DNA of 64,000 nucleotides from the NCBI RefSeq assembly GCF_900142205.1, contig NZ_FRAA01000004.1:1-64000 (forward strand). The letters run 5' to 3'. The stretch is from Reichenbachiella agariperforans (GTDB taxonomy: Bacteria; Bacteroidota; Bacteroidia; Cytophagales; Cyclobacteriaceae). Positions 40,925-52,641 of this stretch are shown here, one piece after another. Within the stretch, counting starts at the first letter, position 1. Every line of letters starts with the position of its first letter. A program made the position numbers and the translations under genes. Below the pieces are notes generated by a model. That model saw only the letters and a list, made by a program, of their open reading frames with translations, was not told the origin of the DNA and searched no databases.

Positions 40925-41293
40925 TTACACCTTCTTCTGATTTCCTTCTGCAGTGACTACACTTTTTACAAAGATTGAAATCAACTGATTATTCTCATCC
41001 AAAATCTTTTCGATCAATTCCATGTGGTCAAACAATTTGGCTCGCTTAATAATTTGAAGATTGATATAAGACTCTCTCAATTCTTTCAATACTACTTTCA
41101 GTTTATGAATAAAATCCCGTCTGGATTCCCCTGCCTGAGCCTCTCCATAATTCAATGCTACTGAAGTCCCAGACCGAACCAATTGCCCAGCCAAATGATT
41201 TCCTGCTTTTGAACTAGGCATTTTGTCCACAACATCAATGATCGAGACTGAAAATTCAATTAGTCTTTCTTCTAAATCATAATTGTACTTCAT
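40925..41293 (-). CDS. Four-helix-bundle protein (23S rRNA intervening-sequence type)
   Basis: 122 residues. Matches the four-helix-bundle family first seen inside 23S rRNA intervening sequences: LEERLIEFSVSIIDVVDKMPSSKAGNHLAGQLVRSGTSVALNYGEAQAGESRRDFIHKLKVVLKELRES then IKRAKLF. Function is unknown across the family. It lies between the ilv and thr operons and is flanked by related repeats on both sides (40837-40924 and 41315-41383), with partial copies of its own 3' end downstream, so it looks like a repeat-bounded unit inserted into the amino-acid block. Confidence 0.9.
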   Translation of the reverse strand: MKYNYDLEERLIEFSVSIIDVVDKMPSSKAGNHLAGQLVRSGTSVALNYGEAQAGESRRDFIHKLKVVLKELRESYINLQIIKRAKLFDHMELIEKILDENNQLISIFVKSVVTAEGNQKKV

Positions 41294-41505: not shown

Positions 41506-42771
41506 CTACACCAAATACTGCAACAAGTCCGGCTTGTCGTTGAGATACTCGTAGACAAAATTCTTGGCAGTCATGCGGTCCAGCAGCCCCTGTAGGTTGT
41601 CTTTGTTTTGCAACTCGATTCCGATCAAAGCGGGTCCCTTTTCGCGGCTGTGCTTTTTCGAATATTCGAAGTGCACGATATCATCCCCTGGTGATAGTAT
41701 CTCCGAGACGAACTCCTTGAGTGCCCCCGCTCGTTGTGGAAATCGCAAGATGAAATAATGCTTGAACCCCTCGTAGAGCAACGAACGTTCCTTGATTTCT
41801 TCGGTACGGGTGATATCGTTGTTGCTACCGCTGATCACGCAGACGACATGCTTGCCTTTGATTTGCTCCTTGTAGAAGTCCAGAGCGGTCAGCGTCAAGG
41901 CGCCTGCAGGTTCTACCACGATGGCTTCCTCGTTGTACAACTGTAGAATCGTCGTACAGATCTTGCCCTCTGGCACGAGAATAATCTCCTCCAGCCCGTC
42001 TTGGCAAATCTCCAAAGTCTGAGTCCCCACGGCCCGCACTGCCGCACCATCTACGAAAGTGTCGATCTCGTCGAGGGTCACATTCTCCCCTGCAGCGATG
42101 GAGTCGCGCATGGCCGGTGCTCCAGCAGGTTCTACCCCGATGATTTTGGTCGCTGGCGACAGTTCTTTGAACACCGTGATGATGCCAGAGGCCAGACCTC
42201 CACCCCCGATCGGTACAAACAAATAGTCGATGGGCGCACCAGTATCATTGGCAATCTCTAGTCCTACTGTTCCTTGTCCTTCGATGATTTTCTGATCGTC
42301 AAACGGATGTACAAACGTCGATTGGTTTTCTTCGCCATAGCGCTGTGCCTGCTTATAAGCGTCATCGAAGGTGTCGCCTGTCAGTACGACTTCTACCTTG
42401 TCCTTGCCAAACATCTTAACCTGCCGGATCTTCTGCTTGGGTGTGACACTCGGCATGAATATCGTGCCGTGTATACCTAGCTTCTGACAGGAATATGCTA
42501 CGCCCTGAGCATGGTTTCCAGCACTGGCACAGACGATTCCATTGTCTTGTTGGGCTTTGCTGAGGCTTGCGACTTTGTTGTAGGCTCCACGGAGCTTGTA
42601 CGAACGTACGACCTGTAGGTCTTCACGCTTGAACTCCACCTCCGCATCGTAGCGCTCGGAGTAGTTGAGATTGGGCATGAGCGGAGTATGCACCGCCACG
42701 CCTTCCAGCCCCTTACTCGCTTTCATCACACCTACCAGTGTAGGTTTATTGGATTTGACAGCCGACTCCAT
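41506..42771 (-). CDS. ilvA: Threonine ammonia-lyase (threonine deaminase)
   Basis: 421 residues, PLP enzyme making 2-oxobutanoate for isoleucine. The PLP Lys lies in VVRSYKLRGAYNKVASL; the CASAGNHAQGVAYSC and VPIGGGGLASGI loops follow. A single ACT-like regulatory domain sits at the C-terminus (~325-421, FKHYFILRFPQRAGALKEFVSEIL), so this is the shorter biosynthetic form with one regulatory domain instead of two. Last gene of the ilv operon, 3 bases after the aminotransferase gene. Confidence 0.95.
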   Translation of the reverse strand: MESAVKSNKPTLVGVMKASKGLEGVAVHTPLMPNLNYSERYDAEVEFKREDLQVVRSYKLRGAYNKVASLSKAQQDNGIVCASAGNHAQGVAYSCQKLGIHGTIFMPSVTPKQKIRQVKMFGKDKVEVVLTGDTFDDAYKQAQRYGEENQSTFVHPFDDQKIIEGQGTVGLEIANDTGAPIDYLFVPIGGGGLASGIITVFKELSPATKIIGVEPAGAPAMRDSIAAGENVTLDEIDTFVDGAAVRAVGTQTLEICQDGLEEIILVPEGKICTTILQLYNEEAIVVEPAGALTLTALDFYKEQIKGKHVVCVISGSNNDITRTEEIKERSLLYEGFKHYFILRFPQRAGALKEFVSEILSPGDDIVHFEYSKKHSREKGPALIGIELQNKDNLQGLLDRMTAKNFVYEYLNDKPDLLQYLV

Positions 42772-42774
42772 AGC

Positions 42775-44109
42775 TTAGGACAGTGTTGCCTCTACTGATT
42801 CGTCGACATCTGAGGTACAGAACTCATAGATTGCTTCAGCGATTTTGCTAAAGGTCTGCTTCAACACCTCTTGGTTCTCTTCGAGTAGCGTGATTCTAAA
42901 TCCTCTCAGTTCGGACTGAAACGAAGACAAAGGCACTACACACACACCTTTGGCAGCTAGCAAGTAATAGACGAAGCGCTTGTCTGGCTCTCCAATTTTC
43001 TCCACCCAGTCTTCCGCTAAGGCTTGGATTTGCTCGTCCTCGATCTTCAAAAATTGCTTGTCATTGATAGATCCGTCTTTGAATACAATGGTGTTGTAAA
43101 ACGCCCCATTGGTCTTGTTGAAAGTGATGTAAGGAATCTCATGGAGATACTGTGAAATGATCTCACTTCGCTCCTCAATTTCTTTTCTACGTTCACGCAG
43201 ATACTCCTTGAACTTCGGGTGTTCTTGGATGATAGGCAATGCCTTTTGTGGCAAAGTCGTCGAACATACCTCTACCATCTTGGCATTTTCCAGCGTCGAA
43301 CAGTACTGATCGAACTGCTCATCCACCTTGCGGTTGTAGAATTCCATCCAACCACACCGAGACCCTGGCCATGGAGTATCTTTGGATATCCCCTTCATGG
43401 CAATCCCAGGTACATCACCGAGTACTTCGGCGAGAGATTTGGTCTCTACACCATTGTAGATGATGTTGGTATAGATTTCGTCACTCACCAAAAACAAGTT
43501 AAACTCCCGAGCAATCTCCACGATCTCCTCTAAAATCTCCACGGGATAGACCATCCCAGTTGGGTTGTCTGGATTGATAATCAATATCCCTACGATGTTG
43601 GGGTTGTATTTGACCTTCAATCGGAGATCTGCCAAATCTGGATACCAGTTGTTCTCGGGATCAAGGTTGTAGGTCAGTGGTTCCTTGTTGGAGTGTGCCG
43701 CCTCCAATGCAGAGTGTGTCGAGTAAGCTGGCGAGGGACCTATCACACGCGAGTAGGGATTCAAAAACTGGTAGAGCTTGCCTATCGCATCTCCCAGCCC
43801 GTTGAAAAACAAGACATCGTCTGCAGTGATTTGTGCACCGCCTTTTTCGTTGTTTTTACCCGCGACGTATTTGCGTGTTTCGAGTTCTCCTTTGGAGTGG
43901 CAGTAACCGTAGGTCGAATTTTCATTGACCAGAGTGGTCAAGATTTCTTTGATCCAGGCGGGTACTACCGCATGCTTGAGGATAGGGTCTCCGATGTTTT
44001 CCCAATAGATTTTTTGTCCGAGTGCTTGCAAAGCCTCTGCTTTCTTGACGATATCTCTGATCTCATAGTCAAGCTGTCTCGAACCCTCATGAAGTAGTAC
44101 TTGTCTCAT
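42775..44109 (-). CDS. PLP aminotransferase, class I/II (alanine-aminotransferase-like)
   Basis: 444 residues from the ATG at 44109; a start 12 codons earlier would extend into the palindromic spacer. Fold-type I aminotransferase: YGYCHSKGELETRKYVA, GPSPAYSTHSALE, IINPDNPTGMVYP, SDEIYTNIIY, the Schiff-base Lys in AMKGISKDTPWPGSRCGW, and FRITLLEE. It resembles the AlaA/alanine-glutamate group. Its place between ilvN and ilvA implies use with branched-chain or 2-oxobutanoate metabolism, such as alanine-valine exchange. Exact substrates are not determined. Confidence 0.88.
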   Translation of the reverse strand: MRQVLLHEGSRQLDYEIRDIVKKAEALQALGQKIYWENIGDPILKHAVVPAWIKEILTTLVNENSTYGYCHSKGELETRKYVAGKNNEKGGAQITADDVLFFNGLGDAIGKLYQFLNPYSRVIGPSPAYSTHSALEAAHSNKEPLTYNLDPENNWYPDLADLRLKVKYNPNIVGILIINPDNPTGMVYPVEILEEIVEIAREFNLFLVSDEIYTNIIYNGVETKSLAEVLGDVPGIAMKGISKDTPWPGSRCGWMEFYNRKVDEQFDQYCSTLENAKMVEVCSTTLPQKALPIIQEHPKFKEYLRERRKEIEERSEIISQYLHEIPYITFNKTNGAFYNTIVFKDGSINDKQFLKIEDEQIQALAEDWVEKIGEPDKRFVYYLLAAKGVCVVPLSSFQSELRGFRITLLEENQEVLKQTFSKIAEAIYEFCTSDVDESVEATLS

Positions 44110-44128
44110 TGTATTAGATGTTAGATTC

Positions 44129-44174
44129 TTAGCACCTAGATTCAAGACTTTGACGCCAAGAGCCTAGGTGCTAA
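44129..44174. repeat. Palindromic spacer with 11-bp arms
   Basis: TTAGCACCTAG (44129-44139) and CTAGGTGCTAA (44164-44174) are exact inverse complements around a 24-base interior. It lies between ilvN and the aminotransferase gene, inside the operon, with no T-run. Probably a dispersed palindrome acting at the mRNA level. Confidence 0.7.
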
Positions 44175-44190: not shown

Positions 44191-44745
44191 TTAAAAATTT
44201 CGGATGTCCAACAGGTTATCCTTGGAGTTCTCTAGTTCCTTGATGTACTCCTCCGTCTTGCGCTTGGACTTAGAAAGTGCCACACGCCCCGAACGCACAA
44301 ACTCCAAAAGCCCTAACGGCACGAGTTTTTCGTATAGATCGTGTGTTTCGTCCTTGAGTCCTGTCTTCTCTAGGATAATGTGATCCTCTTCGATCACCAA
44401 AATCCGCGCACCGTTTTCACGGACGAGCTTCTCGATACTTTGACCGTTCAAAAACACCGACGTAGGCACCTTATATAGAGCGATCTCTTGGTAATAGATC
44501 TGATCCTCGTTGTACAAAAAGGCCCCCAATACATCCACAATCTTGCGGATTTGCTTGACGGTTTTTTCTGCTTCGTCCTGCGTACACGTTACCACGATGG
44601 TGAATCGGCTGATACCTGCCACCTCCGTAGAAGACACGTTCAAACTATCTATATTGATCTTCCTTCTCGTAAAGATGATCGTGATTTGATTCAACAAACC
44701 TGCTTTATCTTCGGTCAGTACCGATAATGTATGTTGCTTATCCAC
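44191..44745 (-). CDS. ilvN: Acetolactate synthase, small regulatory subunit
   Basis: 184 residues. The N-terminal ACT domain (HTLSVLTEDKAGLLNQITIIFTRRKINIDSL) binds valine for feedback. The C-terminal small-subunit domain follows (YYQEIALYKVP, ILVIEEDHIILEKTG, FVRSGRVALSKSKR). GTG at 44745 is the likely start: no upstream ATG is in frame and it sits just after ilvB, with a 14-base gap. Confidence 0.93.
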   Translation of the reverse strand: MDKQHTLSVLTEDKAGLLNQITIIFTRRKINIDSLNVSSTEVAGISRFTIVVTCTQDEAEKTVKQIRKIVDVLGAFLYNEDQIYYQEIALYKVPTSVFLNGQSIEKLVRENGARILVIEEDHIILEKTGLKDETHDLYEKLVPLGLLEFVRSGRVALSKSKRKTEEYIKELENSKDNLLDIRNF

Positions 44746-44759
44746 TTTAATCTAATTTT

Positions 44760-46493
44760 TTAGTCCAACCTCATTTCCGAAACCGAAGCTCCTGTTGGAA
44801 TCATTGGAAATACATTTCCTTCTTTTTCAACCATCACTTCGAGCAAATAAGGCCCTTCGTGATCCAAGAACGTCTTGAGCGCATCGTCGAGATTTTCTCG
44901 CTTATCGACGCGACTACATGGGATACCATAGCCTTCGGAGATCTTCTGAAAATCCGGATTGACCATCTCAGTAAAGGAGTATCGACTATCGAAGAACAAC
45001 TGCTGCCACTGACGCACCATGCCGAGGAAGTTGTTGTTCAAGATCAAAATCTTCACCCCAATCTTGCTCTGGAAGATCGTACCCAACTCCTGAATTGTCA
45101 TCTGGAATCCACCGTCACCAATCACCGCGATGACCTCCTTCTCTGGTCGTCCCATCTTGGCACCCATCGCCGCTGGCAGGGCAAACCCCATGGTTCCTAA
45201 ACCGCCAGAGGTCACATTCAACCTCGTATCGCTAAACTCGTAATACCTCGTCGCAATCATCTGGTGTTGTCCTACATCCGTCACTAGGATGGCTTTTCCT
45301 TCGGTCTTGTCAGAGATCGCTTTGATAACCTCAGACATTTTCAACTCTTCTCCCTTCGGGAAAAAATCACCTTCGATAACCTTGTCATATTCAATTTTGT
45401 CACACGCCTTGAACTCTTCAATCCATGATTCGTGCTTGTTCTCTTTTACTTTCGGTACCAAGTTCAACAATGCCGCTTTGGCATCCGATACGATCGCGAC
45501 TTCTGTCTTCACGTTCTTGTCTACTTCCGCTGGGTCGATCTCGATATGTATCACCTTGGCCTGCTTGGCATAGGTATTCAAATCTCCTGTCACCCTGTCA
45601 TCGAACCTCATCCCGATTGCAATCAAAAGATCACATTCGTTGGTCTTGACGTTGGGGCCGTAGTTGCCATGCATCCCGAGGTAGCCCATGTACAATGGGT
45701 GAGCAGTAGGTACAGCTGACAGTCCCAGCAGCGTAGACGCCATTGGTATGCCCGTTTTTTCGGCGAATGCCAAAAGCTCATGCTGTGCCTGTGAGATGAT
45801 GACACCATGTCCTACGAGGATCATCGGTTTCTTCGCCTCGTCGATCAGTTTGGCAGCAGCATCTACTTTGGACTCATCCAAAATTGGATACGGGTGATAG
45901 CTACGGATTCTTTCACATTTCTGATAAGAAAAATCAAACTCCTCAAACTGTGCATCCTTGGTGATATCGATCAATACCGGACCTGGACGACCCGTATTGG
46001 CGATATAAAAGGCCTTGGCCACCGCCTCAGGAATCTCCGATGCTTTGGTCACCTGTATATTCCACTTGGTGACAGGCATAGAGATACCCACGACATCCGT
46101 CTCCTGAAAAGCATCCGTCCCCAGCAAGTGCGAAGCGACCTGCCCTGTGATACATACCATCGGCGTAGAGTCGATCTGTGCATCCGCGATCCCTGTGATC
46201 AAGTTGGTTGCACCTGGCCCAGAAGTCGCAAAGCAGACACCTGTTTTGCCGTTGACACGAGCATAACCCTGTGCGGCATGCGCGGCACCCTGCTCGTGAC
46301 GTACGAGTATGTGATTGAGTCTGTCCATGTACTTGTATAGCAAGTCATAGATCGGCATGATGGCTCCACCGGGATAGCCAAATATGGTATCGACATCCTC
46401 CTCGAGTAGACATCTGAGGAGTGCCTCAGAGCCAGTCATTCTTTCGGTTTTGGCCATAGCTTTCTTTTCTTGTTCTAATGTAGAAGTCTCCAT
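44760..46493 (-). CDS. ilvB: Acetolactate synthase, large catalytic subunit
   Basis: 577 residues. ThDP-dependent condensation of pyruvate with pyruvate or 2-oxobutanoate. The ThDP Glu is in [16 protein letters not shown]; the FAD-binding middle domain has [12 protein letters not shown]; the Mg-ThDP motif is [16 protein letters not shown] through [15 protein letters not shown]. Full length for the family. The start at 46493 is followed 12 codons later by MAKTERMTG, a possible alternative. It works with ilvN downstream. Confidence 0.96.
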
Positions 46494-46505: not shown

Positions 46506-48176
46506 TTATTCGTCGGTCACACATCCTTCGGATGCAGACTTTACTTGATTGATATATTTCTTGAGTATGCCTTTGGTTGCTTTGTAAGGAGGCTGTACCC
46601 ATTCTTTCTTTCTTTTCTCCATCTCCTCGTCACTGATCTTCAGTTCGAGTTTGTTGTTGACTGCATCGATGGCGATGATGTCTCCATCTTTCACCAATCC
46701 TAGCGGCCCACCTTCTTGCGCTTCTGGAGTGATGTGCCCCACCACGAAACCATGCGAACCACCAGAGAATCGACCGTCCGTGATCAATGCCACGTCTTTG
46801 CCTAATCCTGCGCCCATCACAGCACCTGTAGGCTTGAGCATTTCTGGCATCCCTGGCCCACCTTTTGGTCCAGAGTATCGGATGACAATCACTTCTCCTT
46901 TTTGCACCTCTTCGCCGATTCCTTTGATCGCCGCGAACTCATCGTCGTAGCATCTCGCTGGCCCTTCGAAGTACTCGCCTTCTTTGCCTGTAATCTTCGC
47001 TACCGCACCAGTCGGTGCGAGGTTTCCATACAGAATCTGCAAGTGTCCCGACTTTTTGATCGGATCTCCAAAGGAGTGAATCACATCCTGCTTCGCTTTC
47101 AAAGAAGGTCCTTCTTCTATGTTTTGTGCCAAAGTCTTACCCGTCACAGTCATACAATCACCGTGTAGATAACCTTCTTTCAACAAGACTTTCATCACAC
47201 CTGGAATACCTCCCACGTTGTGAAGATCCTCCATGAGGTACTTTCCACTTGGTTTCAAATCCGCTAAGAAAGGAGTCGTATCTGACAATCTTTGGAAGTC
47301 ATCCAATCCGATCGGCACATCGACAGACTTGGCCATGGCGATCAAGTGAAGCACCGCATTAGTAGAGCCTCCTGTAATCATCACCAATCGAATCGCATTT
47401 TCGAACGCCTCTTTGGTCATTATGTCGCTCGGACGAATATCCTCGGTCAGCAAATGTCTCACCGCCTGCCCTACTCTATAGGTCTCTTGCTTCTTGTCCT
47501 CGCTTTCGGCAGGATTGGAAGAAGAAGAAGGTAAACTCATCCCCATTGCCTCGATAGCAGATGCTAGCGTATTCGCGGTGTACATCCCTCCACATGCCCC
47601 TGGGCCTGGGATTGCATTTTTGATAATTCCTTTGAAATCCTCGTCAGAAATATTATTTCCTAGTTTTTGGCCGTATGCCTCGAAAGCCGATACAATGTTG
47701 AGATCTTCGCCCTTCCATTTCCCAGGCTTGACCGAGCCGCCGTAGACCATGAGTCCCGGTCTGTTCAATCGTCCCAAAGCCATGATAGCGCCAGGCATGT
47801 TCTTGTCACACCCTACGACTGGAACTACTGCATCGTAAAACTGTGCATTGACCACTGTCTCGATGGAATCTGCGATAATGTCACGAGACACCAATGAATA
47901 TTTCATCCCAACTGTACCATTGGATATCCCGTCGGAGACCCCTATAGTATGGAAAATCAAACCGACTAGATCAGCTTCTTTGACCCCTTTTTTGACTTGG
48001 TGAGCCAAAATATTGAGGTGCATGTTACATGGGTTTCCTTCAAAACCGGTACTGACTATACCTACTTGTGCTTTGCTCATGTCGGCTTCTGTCAATCCCG
48101 TCGCGTACAATTGTGCCTGTGAACCAGGTTGCGAAGGATCTTGCGTGATCGTCTTACTGTGTTTGTTAAGTTCCAT
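46506..48176 (-). CDS. ilvD: Dihydroxy-acid dehydratase
   Basis: 556 residues. Fe-S enzyme making 2-oxo acids of Val/Ile. Cluster and Mg ligands are visible: [64 protein letters not shown]. The C-terminal [25 protein letters not shown] and [20 protein letters not shown] are typical. It precedes ilvB by 12 bases. ilvC, the step before it, is absent from this operon and window. Confidence 0.96.
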
Positions 48177-48207: not shown

Positions 48208-49098
48208 TTATCCTACCGCCGACTCACTCAACTCTTCGTTGGTGACTCTGGCTCTATACATCTGAAACAGCTCGTAGGCCACTGTTTCTTTCCAATCTTT
48301 TTTGAACTCAATATCTCCTATCGAGGAAATACTCGCAACCTCTGTCGCCGTACCTGTGAAAAAAGCAACTTCCCCTCCTCTCATATCCTCTGGCACGAAC
48401 AGCTTTTCCACGACAGGATAGCCGAGCTCCATCGCGTACTCGATGATAGTTGCTCTCGTGATACCTGGCAGGATATTGCCCAATGGAGGCGTATAGATCA
48501 CACCGTCTTTGACAAAGAAGAAGTTCTGTCCAGACCCCTCCGACACATAACCGTCCGAATCCAACAACAAAGCCTCATCGTACCCCTCTCGCTTGGCTTC
48601 ATTGGTTGCCAAAATAGAGTTTGTATAGTTGCCAGTCACCTTCGCCTCAATCGGAATTGACTTTGGGTTTGGACGCTGGTAGGATGAAATCATCACTTTG
48701 AGTGACTCATCTCCGAGGTATGGAGGCCACTCCCAAGTCGCCATCATGATATGTGTCTCACCACAGGTAATCAGCTTCATGTTAGCGCCGAGATATATCA
48801 ATGGTCTGATGTAGGCATTCTCCAGATTATTCTTTTCTATCAACTCATAAGAAATCTTGACGAGTTCGTCCACCGAGTAGGGAAACTTAATTGCCATTCG
48901 CTCTGCCGAAAACTTCAAGCGTTCAAAGTGCTGCTTAGCCTTGAAAATATTTGGTCCTGCAGCACTACCATAAGACCGTATTCCTTCGAACACACCATTG
49001 CCATGGTGCATGGTTTGGCTATACAAATTGACTTTAGCCTCAGAAGCCTTGAGCCACTGGCCGTCTAGGTAAAGAATCGAATTTTCGTTGTAATACAT
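48208..49098 (-). CDS. ilvE: Branched-chain amino acid aminotransferase, short (296-aa) form
   Basis: 296 residues, fold-type IV BCAT of the bacterial size class. Family marks: LYSQTMHHGNGVFEGIRSY, RPLIYLGA, the PLP-Lys region IEAKVTGNYTNSILATNEAKREGYDEALLLDSDGYVSEGSGQNFFFV, and LPGITRATIIEYA. First structural gene of the ilv operon, directly behind the double attenuator. Its presence in addition to the 353-aa BCAT at 6569-7630 suggests a biosynthetic role here. Confidence 0.94.
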   Translation of the reverse strand: MYYNENSILYLDGQWLKASEAKVNLYSQTMHHGNGVFEGIRSYGSAAGPNIFKAKQHFERLKFSAERMAIKFPYSVDELVKISYELIEKNNLENAYIRPLIYLGANMKLITCGETHIMMATWEWPPYLGDESLKVMISSYQRPNPKSIPIEAKVTGNYTNSILATNEAKREGYDEALLLDSDGYVSEGSGQNFFFVKDGVIYTPPLGNILPGITRATIIEYAMELGYPVVEKLFVPEDMRGGEVAFFTGTATEVASISSIGDIEFKKDWKETVAYELFQMYRARVTNEELSESAVG

Positions 49099-49130
49099 GG
49101 TCTAATCTCTTTAAGTTATTTAGCAATAGA

Positions 49131-49167
49131 CATAAAAAAAGCCCTTCACTGTAAAGAGAAAGGCTTT
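49131..49167 (-). terminator. Attenuator terminator B of the ilv operon
   Basis: On the minus strand, AAAGCCTTTC and GAAGGGCTTT pair over 10 bp (one G-U, possible only in minus-strand RNA) and are followed by seven T. The 5' arm region also contains CTTTCTC (plus 49156-49162), complementary to GAGAAAG overlapping the stop codon of leader B (plus 49191-49197). The two pairings exclude each other. Confidence 0.8.
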
Positions 49168-49195
49168 CGGATATTTTTAGATATACGCAGCTTTC

Positions 49196-49255
49196 TCAGT
49201 AACCGTACACGGCAGTCACAGTGACAATAGCTAATATGTCAATAATCGTTATCAC
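49196..49255 (-). CDS. Leader peptide B of the ilv operon
   Basis: A 19-residue frame from a GTG at 49255 to a TGA at 49196-49198. Composition: 5 Ile, 3 internal Val, 3 Thr, 1 Leu, ending VYGY. The stretch ITIID then ILAIVTVT would stall a ribosome when Ile or Val tRNA is uncharged. There is no in-frame ATG, so the start codon is uncertain. Its stop codon overlaps the antiterminator segment of attenuator B. Confidence 0.6.
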   Translation of the reverse strand: MITIIDILAIVTVTAVYGY

Positions 49256-49278
49256 TTTTATCTGTTGTTTTTGGGCAA

Positions 49279-49312
49279 TAAAAAAGCGTCATCCTTTGGG
49301 GGAATGACGCTT
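49279..49312 (-). terminator. Attenuator terminator A of the ilv operon
   Basis: AAGCGTCAT and ATGACGCTT form a 9-bp stem followed by six T on the minus strand. The 5' side includes TCATTCCC (plus 49300-49307), an exact complement of GGGAATGA at the end of leader A (plus 49341-49348), giving a mutually exclusive antiterminator. Confidence 0.82.
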
Positions 49313-49340
49313 CAAATATTTTTTTAGAATTATTGATATA

Positions 49341-49409
49341 TCATTCCCGGCCTGTGATCACGGTGACCACTGCTACAATCGTTAATGCTATGACAATAAT
49401 TGCTATCAT
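49341..49409 (-). CDS. Leader peptide A of the ilv operon
   Basis: A 22-residue frame from an ATG at 49409 to a TGA at 49341-49343. It has 6 Ile, 5 Val, 3 Thr and 1 Leu; the opening MIAIIVIALTIVAVVTVIT is a classic ILV stalling sequence. AGAAAG precedes the start. The last codons and stop (GGGAATGA) are the antiterminator strand for terminator A: a ribosome reaching the stop would mask it and allow termination, while one stalled on Ile/Val codons would leave it free. Confidence 0.8.
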   Translation of the reverse strand: MIAIIVIALTIVAVVTVITGRE

Positions 49410-49428
49410 TTCTTTCTTTTAATTAATG

Positions 49429-49461
49429 CCAAAATAGCTCATTTTAATTTTCAGTTCCAAA
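49429..49461 (-). promoter_or_regulatory. Promoter candidate of the ilv operon
   Basis: On the minus strand, TTTG (49458-49461) and TATTTTG (within 49429-49436) lie 21 bases apart. The -7 is one base shorter than TAnnTTTG. Transcription would begin ~13 bases before leader peptide A. Confidence 0.4.
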
Positions 49462-49613
49462 CAAACAGTCGGGTTTTTGACAAAAATAAAATACACTCGC
49501 TTGTAGCCTACTAAACAATACTTAGCTCAGGAAGAATTGAAATTTCACTTTTCTCCTACCCAAAGAAACCACCTACTGCGATTTCGACTTAACTTACCTT
49601 ATTCGAAAAACAA

Positions 49614-49790: not shown

Positions 49791-50948
49791 TTAGGCACTA
49801 ATTGCTAGTGCATTCATGAGCTCTTTCAACTGCTCCTCCTCTACCACATTATGCTTGTCTGCTACAGATAAAAACTGCTTGTACGCTACATCCAGCTCTT
49901 CTTTGGCTAACTTGAAACCGATTTTTTCCAATCGGTAGCTCAATGCTGCTCTACCACTGCGGGCAGTCAGGATAATAGATGACTCGTTCACGCCGACTTC
50001 CGCTGGATCGATAATCTCGTAATTGTCCCGATTCTTAATCACACCGTCTTGGTGTATCCCCGATGAGTGTGCAAAGGCATTAGAACCCACGATCGCCTTG
50101 TTTGGCTGTACAGGCATTCTCATTTTTTCAGAGACCAATCGGCTCATGGCGTTGAGGCGTCTAGCATCTATCCGCGTATCACTTTTCAACCAGCTGTGCT
50201 TGCGCATGATCATCACGACCTCTTCGAGTGATGTATTTCCTGCACGCTCTCCAATTCCATTGATAGTACATTCGATTTGTCTCGCTCCATTTTGTACCCC
50301 AGCGATAGAGTTGGCAGTCGCCAAACCTAGATCGTTGTGACAGTGCGTCGACAAGATCGCTTTCTCAATTCCTTTGACGTTTTCTTTGAGGTATTTGATT
50401 TTAGCCCCATACTCTTCTGGCAGACAATACCCTGTGGTATCTGGGATATTAATCACTGTGGCTCCTTCTGCAATGACCGCTTCTACGACTTGCGCCAAGA
50501 AGGCATTCTCGGTACGTCCCGCATCCTCCGCATAGAACTCCACGTCTTCCACATATTTTTTTGCCCACTTGACAGCCTGCTTACTTCTCACTAGGATATC
50601 TTCTCTAGTGGTTTTGATTTTAGTAAACACGTGCTGATCCGATGTCCCGATCCCTGTATGGATTCTTGGGTGCTTCGCATGTTTCAATGCTTCGGCAGCT
50701 ACTTCTATATCTTTTTGTACTGCACGCGTCAATCCACACACAGTAGCATTTTTAACCAATTTGGCTATCTCAGACACAGACTCAAAGTCTCCAGGGCTGG
50801 AAACCGGAAAGCCCGCTTCGATAATATCAACCCCCAACAGCTCTAGTTCTTCCGCTATCAGCAACTTATCTTTGGTATTCAACCTGCACCCAGGTACTTG
50901 TTCTCCATCTCTAAGCGTCGTATCGAATATGTGTATGCGATTTTCCAT
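49791..50948 (-). CDS. leuA: 2-isopropylmalate synthase, short form without regulatory domain
   Basis: 385 residues. Condenses 2-oxoisovalerate with acetyl-CoA for leucine. The HMGL-like barrel has [15 protein letters not shown], the metal ligands [11 protein letters not shown], and [26 protein letters not shown] marks the linker subdomain. The ~110-130-residue C-terminal allosteric domain of the ~510-residue enzyme is missing, so Leu inhibition is not expected at this site. Homocitrate or citramalate synthase are related alternatives, but the motif set and neighbours favour LeuA. leuBCD are not in the window. Divergent from 51094. Confidence 0.88.
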
Positions 50949-51093: not shown

Positions 51094-52641
51094 ATGTCTA
51101 AAGAAAGATCCGACTCTCTATTTCTTTTGATCAAGTCACTCAAGAAAAGTGAAAAGCGCTATTTCAACCTATCGAATAGTGGCACAGAAAATGCCAAATA
51201 CACCCATCTATTTAGCGTTATTGACAAGCAGAAGAAATTCGATGACGATGAAATATTGATCAAAGCGCCCATAATCAAGGCACAACAACTCTCTAATCTC
51301 AAAGCTCACCTCTACACCAAAGTACTCGAATCACTGCGAGACTACAATTCTAGTACACTCCCCAACATCCGTATCCGGGACATGGTGGATCACGCCGAGA
51401 TTCTATTCAACAAAAGTCTCTATACCCAATGTGCTGAGGTAATCAAAAAAGCAAAAAAAATGGCCATCAAGAGTGACAACCTTGAGATGCAATTGGAGAT
51501 TTTAAAATGGGAGAAACAAATGCTCACACGACATACGGTCCGTGACAGTCTAGAGCGAACCAACAAAGTGATACGAGAGATAGAGGAAACCACCACACGC
51601 ATCAACCATATCAACTCTTTCTCCAACCTCCAGTTCAAACTACAAGCGATGTACAAAAAAATTGGGTTCATCCGAAATGAAAGTGACTACAAGGACATCA
51701 ATCAGGTTTTCAACTCCAACTTGCCATTATTCAATGAAGCGACTTTTTCTGTCAGTGAAAAAATCAGTTTGTATACTCTGTATATAGGTTACTATTTTTT
51801 TATTCAGGATTTCAAAAAAGGGTATCAGTACGCCAAACGGCTCGTCGAGCTCTTTTCGGGACAAAAAACACTAATCCAATCAAGGCTGGAAGCTTACATC
51901 TCTAGTCTGAACTATCTACTAATCGCTCAAAACAAACTCCTGAAATACCGTGAATTTCAAAACACCACACGTGAGCTCCGTGCATTATACACCCTGCCTT
52001 CTGCTCACCTCAACGAAAACATCAAGCTAAAGCTGCAGAAATACACCTTCGTCCACGAGTTTAATCGACTCTTTATGAAAGGAGATTTTAGGAGAGGTGT
52101 TAACCTAATAGAACGGATCATGCCAGGAATCGAACCCTTTGCTCTACAGCTTGACCCACACTCTCGAGTCATCATGTACTTCAAAACCGCCTGTCTATAC
52201 TTTGGAAATGACGACCACAAAACTGCCATTATCTGGCTCAACAAAATCATCAACTCGCACGAAGTGGATTTGAGAGAGGACATTCACGGTTTTGCACGGA
52301 TAGTTAACCTGATCAGCCACTATGAACTAGGCAACATGGAGTTGATCGAGTACTACGTACGATCCACCTATCGTTTTCTTCTGAAGAAAGAAGACCTCCA
52401 TCAGTTTCAAAAATACATCCTCAACTTCCTCGTAAGACTAAAGACAAACATCACGGAAAAAGAGCTAGAAAAACGATTCGAAACACTGCGTAATAATCTC
52501 CTCTTGCTATCCAAAGATCCTTACGAAAAAAGAGCTTTCTTGTACTTCGATATCATCTCGTGGCTAGAATCCAAAATCGAAAAGCGTCCCGTACAGAATA
52601 TCATCCAAGAAAAAGCGGCTGTTCGCTTGACGAACGCCTAG
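51094..52641 (+). CDS. Conserved helical-repeat protein, unknown function
   Basis: 515 residues, no signal peptide or membrane span. Rich in Lys/Leu and predicted all-helical, with TPR-like segments (HAEILFNKSLYTQCAEVIKKAKKMAIKS; YQYAKRLVELFSG; CLYFGNDDHKTAIIWLNKII). The N-terminal SLFLLIKSLKKSEKRYFNLSN is a pattern seen in cytoplasmic Bacteroidota hypotheticals. Divergent from leuA; a 46-base gap separates it from the thiolase gene downstream. No function is claimed. Confidence 0.75.
   Translation: MSKERSDSLFLLIKSLKKSEKRYFNLSNSGTENAKYTHLFSVIDKQKKFDDDEILIKAPIIKAQQLSNLKAHLYTKVLESLRDYNSSTLPNIRIRDMVDHAEILFNKSLYTQCAEVIKKAKKMAIKSDNLEMQLEILKWEKQMLTRHTVRDSLERTNKVIREIEETTTRINHINSFSNLQFKLQAMYKKIGFIRNESDYKDINQVFNSNLPLFNEATFSVSEKISLYTLYIGYYFFIQDFKKGYQYAKRLVELFSGQKTLIQSRLEAYISSLNYLLIAQNKLLKYREFQNTTRELRALYTLPSAHLNENIKLKLQKYTFVHEFNRLFMKGDFRRGVNLIERIMPGIEPFALQLDPHSRVIMYFKTACLYFGNDDHKTAIIWLNKIINSHEVDLREDIHGFARIVNLISHYELGNMELIEYYVRSTYRFLLKKEDLHQFQKYILNFLVRLKTNITEKELEKRFETLRNNLLLLSKDPYEKRAFLYFDIISWLESKIEKRPVQNIIQEKAAVRLTNA

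Follow-up and report, generated by a model that had tools for sequence, protein, structure and literature searches.

Two predicted ribosome-mediated attenuators in series upstream of ilvE in Reichenbachiella agariperforans

When the 64,000-nucleotide stretch of Reichenbachiella agariperforans DNA analysed here (the window) was annotated, a run of ilv genes was observed on the minus strand, with leuA upstream on the same strand and a bifunctional aspartokinase/homoserine dehydrogenase gene downstream (Table 1). On the minus strand between 49461 and 49098, a promoter-like site is followed by leader ORF 1 and a terminator, then by leader ORF 2 and a second terminator, and finally by ilvE. Two modules are thus located 5' of ilvE, spanning 49409-49131. 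Each consists of a leader ORF, a segment (S) that overlies the stop of this leader, and a terminator, and S is complementary to the 5' arm of that terminator.

Table 1 Features of the ilv locus and its leader in the window
Feature	Position	Strand	Basis or remark
Promoter-like site, TTTG + TATTTTG	49430..49461	(-)	Loose near match to the Bacteroidota type TTTG/TAnnTTTG
Leader peptide ORF 1, MIAIIVIALTIVAVVTVITGRE and stop, ATG, 22 codons	49341..49409	(-)	ORF; indel-free in 8 congeners
Segment 1, within leader 1 codons 3-11; partner is segment 2	49377..49401	(-)	Consensus fold, 8 congeners
Apical helix of 1:2 hairpin, 7 pairs, covarying	49354..49370	(-)	94.6 % of cells paired; two-sided change in 4 of 7 pairs
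Segment 2 of 1:2 hairpin, includes S1	49328..49352	(-)	Consensus fold
S1 GGGAATGAT, over leader 1 stop, antiterminator strand	49340..49348	(-)	Complementarity and conservation
Terminator 1, stem 49313-49283 and U run	49279..49313	(-)	Fold, shuffles, conservation
Leader peptide ORF 2, VITIIDILAIVTVTAVYGY and stop, GTG, 19 codons	49196..49255	(-)	ORF; ATG start in three congeners
S2 GAGAAAG, at leader 2 stop, antiterminator strand	49191..49197	(-)	Complementarity and conservation
Terminator 2, stem 49168-49137 and U run	49131..49168	(-)	Fold, conservation
leuA (2-isopropylmalate synthase)	49791-50948	(-)	Upstream of ilv leader, same strand
ilvE, branched-chain amino acid transaminase, first gene of the operon	48208..49098	(-)	NCBIfam TIGR01122 above cut-off
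ilvD	46506..48176	(-)	Profile match
ilvB, acetolactate synthase large subunit	44760..46493	(-)	Profile match
ilvN-type acetolactate synthase small subunit	44191..44745	(-)	Profile match
PLP aminotransferase	42775-44145	(-)	Between ilvN-type gene and ilvA
ilvA, threonine ammonia-lyase	41506..42771	(-)	Profile match

Three minor features of the neighbourhood were also recorded. The leuA product has only 385 amino acids and aligns to positions 4-383 of a 516-position model, so that the C-terminal part is missing; this is the region in which Leu feedback sits in other LeuA proteins. A 515-aa ORF (51094-52641, plus strand) is divergent from leuA and has no Pfam match at E 0.001. The interval from the aspartokinase gene to ilvA holds a small ORF (40925-41293, minus strand) that matches the four-helix-bundle/23S rRNA intervening sequence protein family.

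Leader 1 contains six Ile, five Val, three Thr and one Leu codon, with Ile, Val and Leu accounting for 12 of its 22 codons, and leader 2 contains five Ile, four Val (GTG start included), three Thr and one Leu. A first-pass annotation of the sequence had described two minus-strand leaders rich in Ile, Val and Thr, each before a terminator, and its coordinates are correct. The exact S/arm complements that it listed are present in both modules, the first extending by one G-U pair. The terminator 1 5' arm GTCATTCCC (49308-49300) pairs with S1 through 9 pairs, one of them G-U, and the terminator 2 5' arm CTTTCTC (49162-49156) pairs with S2. As there is a single Leu codon in each leader, Leu limitation, named beside Ile and Val limitation in the first-pass annotation, is not an obvious signal.

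The fold of terminator 1 (49330-49267) has an energy of -16.2 kcal/mol (z -5.25) and none of 200 shuffles was as good. Terminator 2 (49190-49120; -14.7, z -2.18) was equalled by 7 of 200 shuffles and is only moderately above them. A generic terminator scan (1.0 expected from shuffles) caught terminator 1 alone; the loop of terminator 2 is longer than the scan permits. When region 49099-49470 was subjected to 3000 dinucleotide shuffles under fixed criteria (a terminator, an S with at least 7 pairs to its 5' arm, and an Ile/Leu/Val-rich ORF ending at S), no shuffle yielded even one module, and the real sequence yielded two. On both strands of the 64 kb, 13 strong terminators were found, and only these two have an S and an Ile/Leu/Val-rich leader. 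In the organism's own genome there is a single occurrence of the pattern GGGARTGAT-N20-50-GTCATTCC. The detector thresholds were set after the window had been seen and differ between the genus, survey, swap and shuffle analyses, so that counts are comparable without following one fixed definition.

Eight Reichenbachiella species, including that of the window, were compared. The consensus fold of module 1 in these eight congeners is one long hairpin formed from most of leader 1, in which the partners of codons 3-11 are the S region and a dozen bases 3' of it (1:2 pairing), capped by a 7-bp stem. The true register of this apical helix is far better paired than slid versions, which reach 57.1 % at most. 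Compared with 500 shuffles, none matched its percentage paired or its covariation score, 10 matched its number of two-sided pairs and 62 its number of pair types. The first Ile/Val codons of leader 1 hardly vary in their bases because the long 1:2 helix includes them. A reading of the leader 1 helix as a stand-alone pause hairpin was rejected, since it is the tip of the longer 1:2 helix in the consensus fold; the hairpin may nevertheless also act by pausing the polymerase.

With the conserved hairpin between leader 1 codons 3-11 and the S region, module 1 is a predicted full four-segment attenuator with the lay-out 1:2, 2:3 and 3:4. In all eight congeners it has a short ORF rich in end-product codons before the first gene, and its intrinsic terminator and antiterminator are mutually exclusive. 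The anatomy given in the first-pass annotation was right for S and the terminator and was incomplete in that the conserved 1:2 hairpin of module 1 had been overlooked.

Module 2 likewise combines an amino-acid-rich leader, a terminator and an antiterminator. When a 1:2 hairpin was sought there, no long helix was found in the consensus fold, and the leader-plus-S segment gave z values from -1.5 to 0.4 in the seven congeners with this module (module 1, -1.6 to -4.7). Some attenuators work without a 1:2 hairpin, so its absence makes module 2 less of a textbook four-segment structure, and not less of an attenuator. Among 141 modules of relatives, the leader-plus-S segment had a mean z of -1.55, and 33 % were below -2 relative to shuffles.

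Reading frames and pairings are kept within the genus. Module 1 was found in 8 of 8 congeners and module 2 in 7 of 8; the exception is G007, where terminator 1 is followed by ilvE. As the ilvE tree nests G007 within this otherwise tandem genus, module 2 was most likely lost there. No indel was observed in leader 1 and one of 3 nt in leader 2, and indels of 1, 2, 3 and 4 nt occur after the stop codons, which speaks for kept reading frames. All 72 cells of S1 and its arm were paired, and there was one two-sided change. For S2 and its arm, 95.2 % of 62 cells were paired and no two-sided change was seen; for terminator 2, the values were 98.6 % of 70 cells and one such change. The observed covariation scores were reached by 52, 500 and 75 of 500 shuffles for S1:arm, S2:arm and terminator 2, respectively. 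These helices vary too little for covariation to be provable within the genus, and the evidence for it comes from between genera (see below).

A ribosome was modelled by masking 28 nt and refolding the RNA, its footprint and the kinetics being assumed. In leader 1, the S:arm probability was 0.99 with A-site codons up to 17, 0.77 at codon 18 and 0.19 at codon 19, and the pairing was gone from codon 20; all Ile and Val codons of this leader are at positions 2-18. In leader 2, it was 0.92 up to codon 16, 0.61 at codon 17 and about 0 after, and the last Val is codon 16. Thus, in both leaders the switch falls after the Ile/Val codons, and no S:arm pairing was predicted at the last codons or the stop. 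Under the 28-nt mask, a stall frees segment 2 and completion masks it in both modules. Congeners resembled the window, except for module 2 of G003 with weak S:arm pairing (0.12-0.65).

The unmasked folds limit how such a switch could work. Module 1 has a 1:2 hairpin that would hold segment 2, yet at equilibrium S:arm beats 1:2 even without a ribosome, so that 1:2 could act only kinetically, either through a temporary hold on S or through a pause of the polymerase. In the full-length RNA, the complete terminator was favoured over the antiterminator in most states. Antitermination must therefore rest on S:arm forming first, as a kinetic switch.

Taking the conserved anatomy and the folding together, the leader RNA very probably represents two complete ribosome-mediated transcription attenuators in series, both sensing the charging of Ile- and Val-tRNA, before ilvE-ilvD-ilvB-ilvN. 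The leaders would be translated as they are transcribed, and a ribosome stalled on Ile or Val codons would leave S over the leader stop free. Free S would pair with the terminator 5' arm while the 3' arm is still to be transcribed, and RNA polymerase would read on. A ribosome reaching the last codons or the stop would cover S, and the terminator would form and end transcription. In module 1, the 1:2 hairpin would in addition let the leader codons hold S while a ribosome is absent. On a single transcript running across both modules, the polymerase would have to get past each of them. The tandem pair may, as the first-pass annotation proposed, give a sharper response. That the attenuators are of the type in which a stall frees S and completion masks it had been claimed from the sequence, and conservation and masked folding support it.

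A single transcript is consistent with the promoter search. The Bacteroidota promoter type is taken here to be TTTG/TAnnTTTG, with TAnnTTTG as the -7 element. In 35 of 123 loci (6.6 expected from shuffles), a strict -7 motif precedes the first leader by no more than 90 nt. The strict match of the window itself lies elsewhere, 79 nt upstream, and only a near match is at the right place. Between terminator 1 and leader 2, no strict -7 motif was observed in the 15 tandem loci tested. One start before leader 1 therefore likely serves both modules. A sigma-70 scan returned 2 sites compared with 3.1 in shuffles.

For the survey of relatives, 174 ilvE loci were collected from 59 relatives, 245 family genomes (110 with the gene at E 1e-70) and 80 named loci. 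Nearly all are labelled Bacteroidota by record title, and two MAGs (L043 and L046) are labelled otherwise. Left out were distant aminotransferases (L025-L038), L100-L118 (18 loci that are outside Bacteroidota by title or weak relatives, and L114, a duplicate of L019), further duplicates (L119-L125, L130, L131, L133, L141, L142 and L146), two loci too short upstream (L099 and L143), and the family matches G211, G156, G075 and G172 (partial). When the 18 loci of L100-L118 were run through the module detector, no module was found in them. Identical ilvE genes occur across the named and unnamed sets (e.g. L058/L135 and L057/L139/L140), which makes both totals, 174 loci and 77 genus labels, somewhat too high.

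A leader and a terminator precede ilvE in 139 of the 174 loci, the leader being picked without regard to S. The mean S:arm complementarity was 18.79 for a module's own partners. It was 13.55 when partners were exchanged across genus labels and 12.15 when the stop regions were shuffled, and none of 200 swap permutations exceeded 14.51. Near-copies under different genus labels would bias this test against the observed result. About half of the modules were in the top tenth of their swaps, and covariation is thus not clear for every module. For the pooled modules, S and the terminator arm covary between genera in these sequences, with codes including GGGAATGAT/GTCATTCCC, GGGGCG/CGCCCC, GTCGGATG/CATCCGAC and TGAAGTAGGA/TCTTACTTCA. 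Conservation of the leader codons and of the alternative pairings in relatives, the absence of which the first-pass annotation had named as grounds for refutation, is therefore observed, with the covariation seen between genera.

Between genera the leader peptides are alike in composition and not in sequence, while S and the arm covary, which argues against functional small proteins. Both leader ORFs are short and hydrophobic and leuA lies upstream on their strand, so that the hairpins might be ordinary terminators of the leuA unit or of these ORFs. We consider this highly improbable, as terminator 1 lies about 480 nt past leuA and the small-protein reading does not explain why two such units, each with an S at its stop, follow one another between leuA and ilvE. 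Control of the terminators by a metabolite riboswitch, a T-box or a bound protein has equally slight probability. A structured 5' leader with terminators does resemble such elements, but the conserved structure is located within and across Ile/Val-rich ORFs with a kept frame. No Rfam family, be it a T-box, a riboswitch, a Thr or Phe leader or any other, reached its gathering score in the window, and all 17 matches at E up to 10 within 49050-49500 were below gathering scores. Riboswitch or T-box identity was thus rejected.

With slightly looser criteria, two modules were found in 27 of the 174 ilvE loci, one in 116 and none in 31. Inspection by eye removed L064, L079 and L098, whose first "leader" is far upstream and probably inside a gene (24 loci), and added L011, L156, L191 and L210 (28 loci). 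Tandem pairs are therefore present in 24 to 28 of 174 loci (14 to 16 %), including, by record title, those of Roseivirga pacifica, a Flavobacterium, Chryseobacterium lathyri, Tenacibaculum adriaticum and a Flavobacteriales MAG. A tandem pair had initially been regarded as unusual for Bacteroidota; it is recurrent instead.

Among the 21 tandem loci that also passed the criteria of the swap analysis, own pairing exceeded cross pairing in 40 of 42 comparisons. The weak members of the whole tandem set are L072 (cross pairing above own), L019 (the same for module 1), L190, L039, L011 and L156. The residue fractions in leader 1 and leader 2 of these 21 loci were 0.276 and 0.312 for Ile, 0.150 and 0.152 for Val, and 0.053 and 0.064 for Leu, and both leaders of tandem pairs are, as judged by composition only, of the same Ile/Val type. 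In L014, the last 200 nt before ilvE contain a clear module 1 followed by two more hairpins and an ORF in degenerate form; the arrangement is perhaps decaying, or perhaps has three steps.

These data bear on whether one module alone works as an attenuator, the other being a relic or a plain leader terminator. One congener, G007, has only module 1, most surveyed loci have a single module, terminator 2 is the weaker fold, and leader 2 begins with GTG in the window and three congeners (ATG in three others). We nevertheless regard this as improbable. Module 2 and its pairings are kept in the genus at the level given above, the sole indel of leader 2 keeps the frame, and tandem pairs recur elsewhere, each with private codes. 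Two working attenuators are thus the preferred reading.

The history of the pairs was followed on an ilvE tree of 121 rows, in which the tandem label changes 12 times, at least 9 of them forced by well-supported branches. In this tree the bootstrap is unsettled, L156 and L210 are labelled single though tandem, the 12 changes being counted on these labels, and L099 and L143 are labelled single although their upstream regions are too short to tell. Tandem pairs may be ancestral or may have arisen several times. Upstream of ilvD, one module was found in 9 of 29 loci and two in none; these 29 are a part of the loci from 74 genomes of the phylum with a match, taken regardless of the place of ilvD in its operon. 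Five of the ilvD loci (L292, L294, L295, L298 and L300), all from one family (f40), share a well conserved leader type, MLSIIISLVIIQIIGIPYRPGKAL, followed by a terminator.

Attenuation of ilvGMEDA through ilvL is the textbook enterobacterial system. The leader described here resembles it in being rich in the amino acids of the operon, in the 1:2, 2:3 and 3:4 pairings of module 1, and in a terminator before the first gene. It differs in that two attenuators are in series instead of one and module 2 is without 1:2; the phylum and gene order also differ, and no Rfam family matches here. In other words, the ilv tandem leader is a predicted same-signal, series-connected and orthogonal version of the classic attenuator, recurrent in the phylum.

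Several published systems share some of these properties. According to the sections available of PMC3641672, the two attenuators of the Salmonella mgtCBR leader respond to different signals, one to ATP and one to proline, which is termed a singular example. As here, two short ORFs in one leader are each part of an attenuator, whereas both leaders here are of the same Ile/Val type and the genes and sequence differ. For the double T-boxes of Firmicutes, a sharper response has been proposed (PMC9413887, in part); they too are two same-signal sensors of tRNA charging in series, but bind tRNA directly, whereas here a translating ribosome would read the charging. Excerpts on Corynebacterium ilvBNC (PMC11857589, PMC10272879) describe one attenuator with three hairpins, also an ilv operon with a leader ORF and a terminator outside enterobacteria, but in another phylum.

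Within Bacteroidota, the accessible portion of a Flavobacterium psychrophilum transcriptome study (PMC9723704) gives strong clues for leader-peptide attenuation before amino-acid operons, naming pheA and hisG elements as conserved, and that of a Bacteroides thetaiotaomicron study (PMC7366714) describes short ORFs in 5' UTRs reminiscent of leader peptides. Both share with the window the phylum and short ORFs in 5' leaders; unlike here, neither an ilv attenuator nor a tandem pair appears in those portions. Attenuators of ilv genes in Bacteroidota are not mentioned in the portions available of PMC4833913, PMC2965389, PMC1262725, PMC8632094 and PMC2864571. Among the matches listed from the open-licence literature, none reported ilv attenuation or a tandem pair of leader-peptide attenuators for this phylum, which is weak evidence of novelty.

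A wider reading is tentative and, in our view, rather doubtful: Bacteroidota may repeatedly have wired same-signal ribosome-mediated attenuators in series with codes that do not cross-pair, in Reichenbachiella with unlike defaults, as a two-step multiplicative filter of leader peptides alone. If so, an untranslated module 1 (with 1:2) would shut the operon off and an untranslated module 2 (without 1:2) would let the polymerase pass. The polymerase would meet two tests some 150 nt from each other, and it would take a deep or lasting shortage of charged Ile/Val-tRNA for the operon to open. The comparative evidence sets predicted ilv attenuation before ilvE in most Bacteroidota loci examined, with no Rfam match in the window. 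Same-signal serial attenuators with private codes and a natural single-module congener would offer a clean system for asking what doubling a ribosome-coupled decision buys, be it dynamic range, noise or timing.

Leader-peptide attenuation seems to be used elsewhere by this organism too, as a His-rich leader and a terminator precede hisG. In its own genome (L241, G000:C11, upstream of hisG near 304001), the leader MTTNRQHHHHTMKRSGEVI with its stop contains four His codons in a row and is followed by a terminator; it is likely a single his attenuator, sharing with the ilv leader the combination of leader peptide and terminator but being single and specific for His instead of Ile/Val. Among 29 relatives, hisG is present in 23, of which 11 have an upstream ORF containing a run of three or more His; a terminator follows this ORF in 10 of them. 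Seven of the eight genus members have a His-rich leader before hisG.
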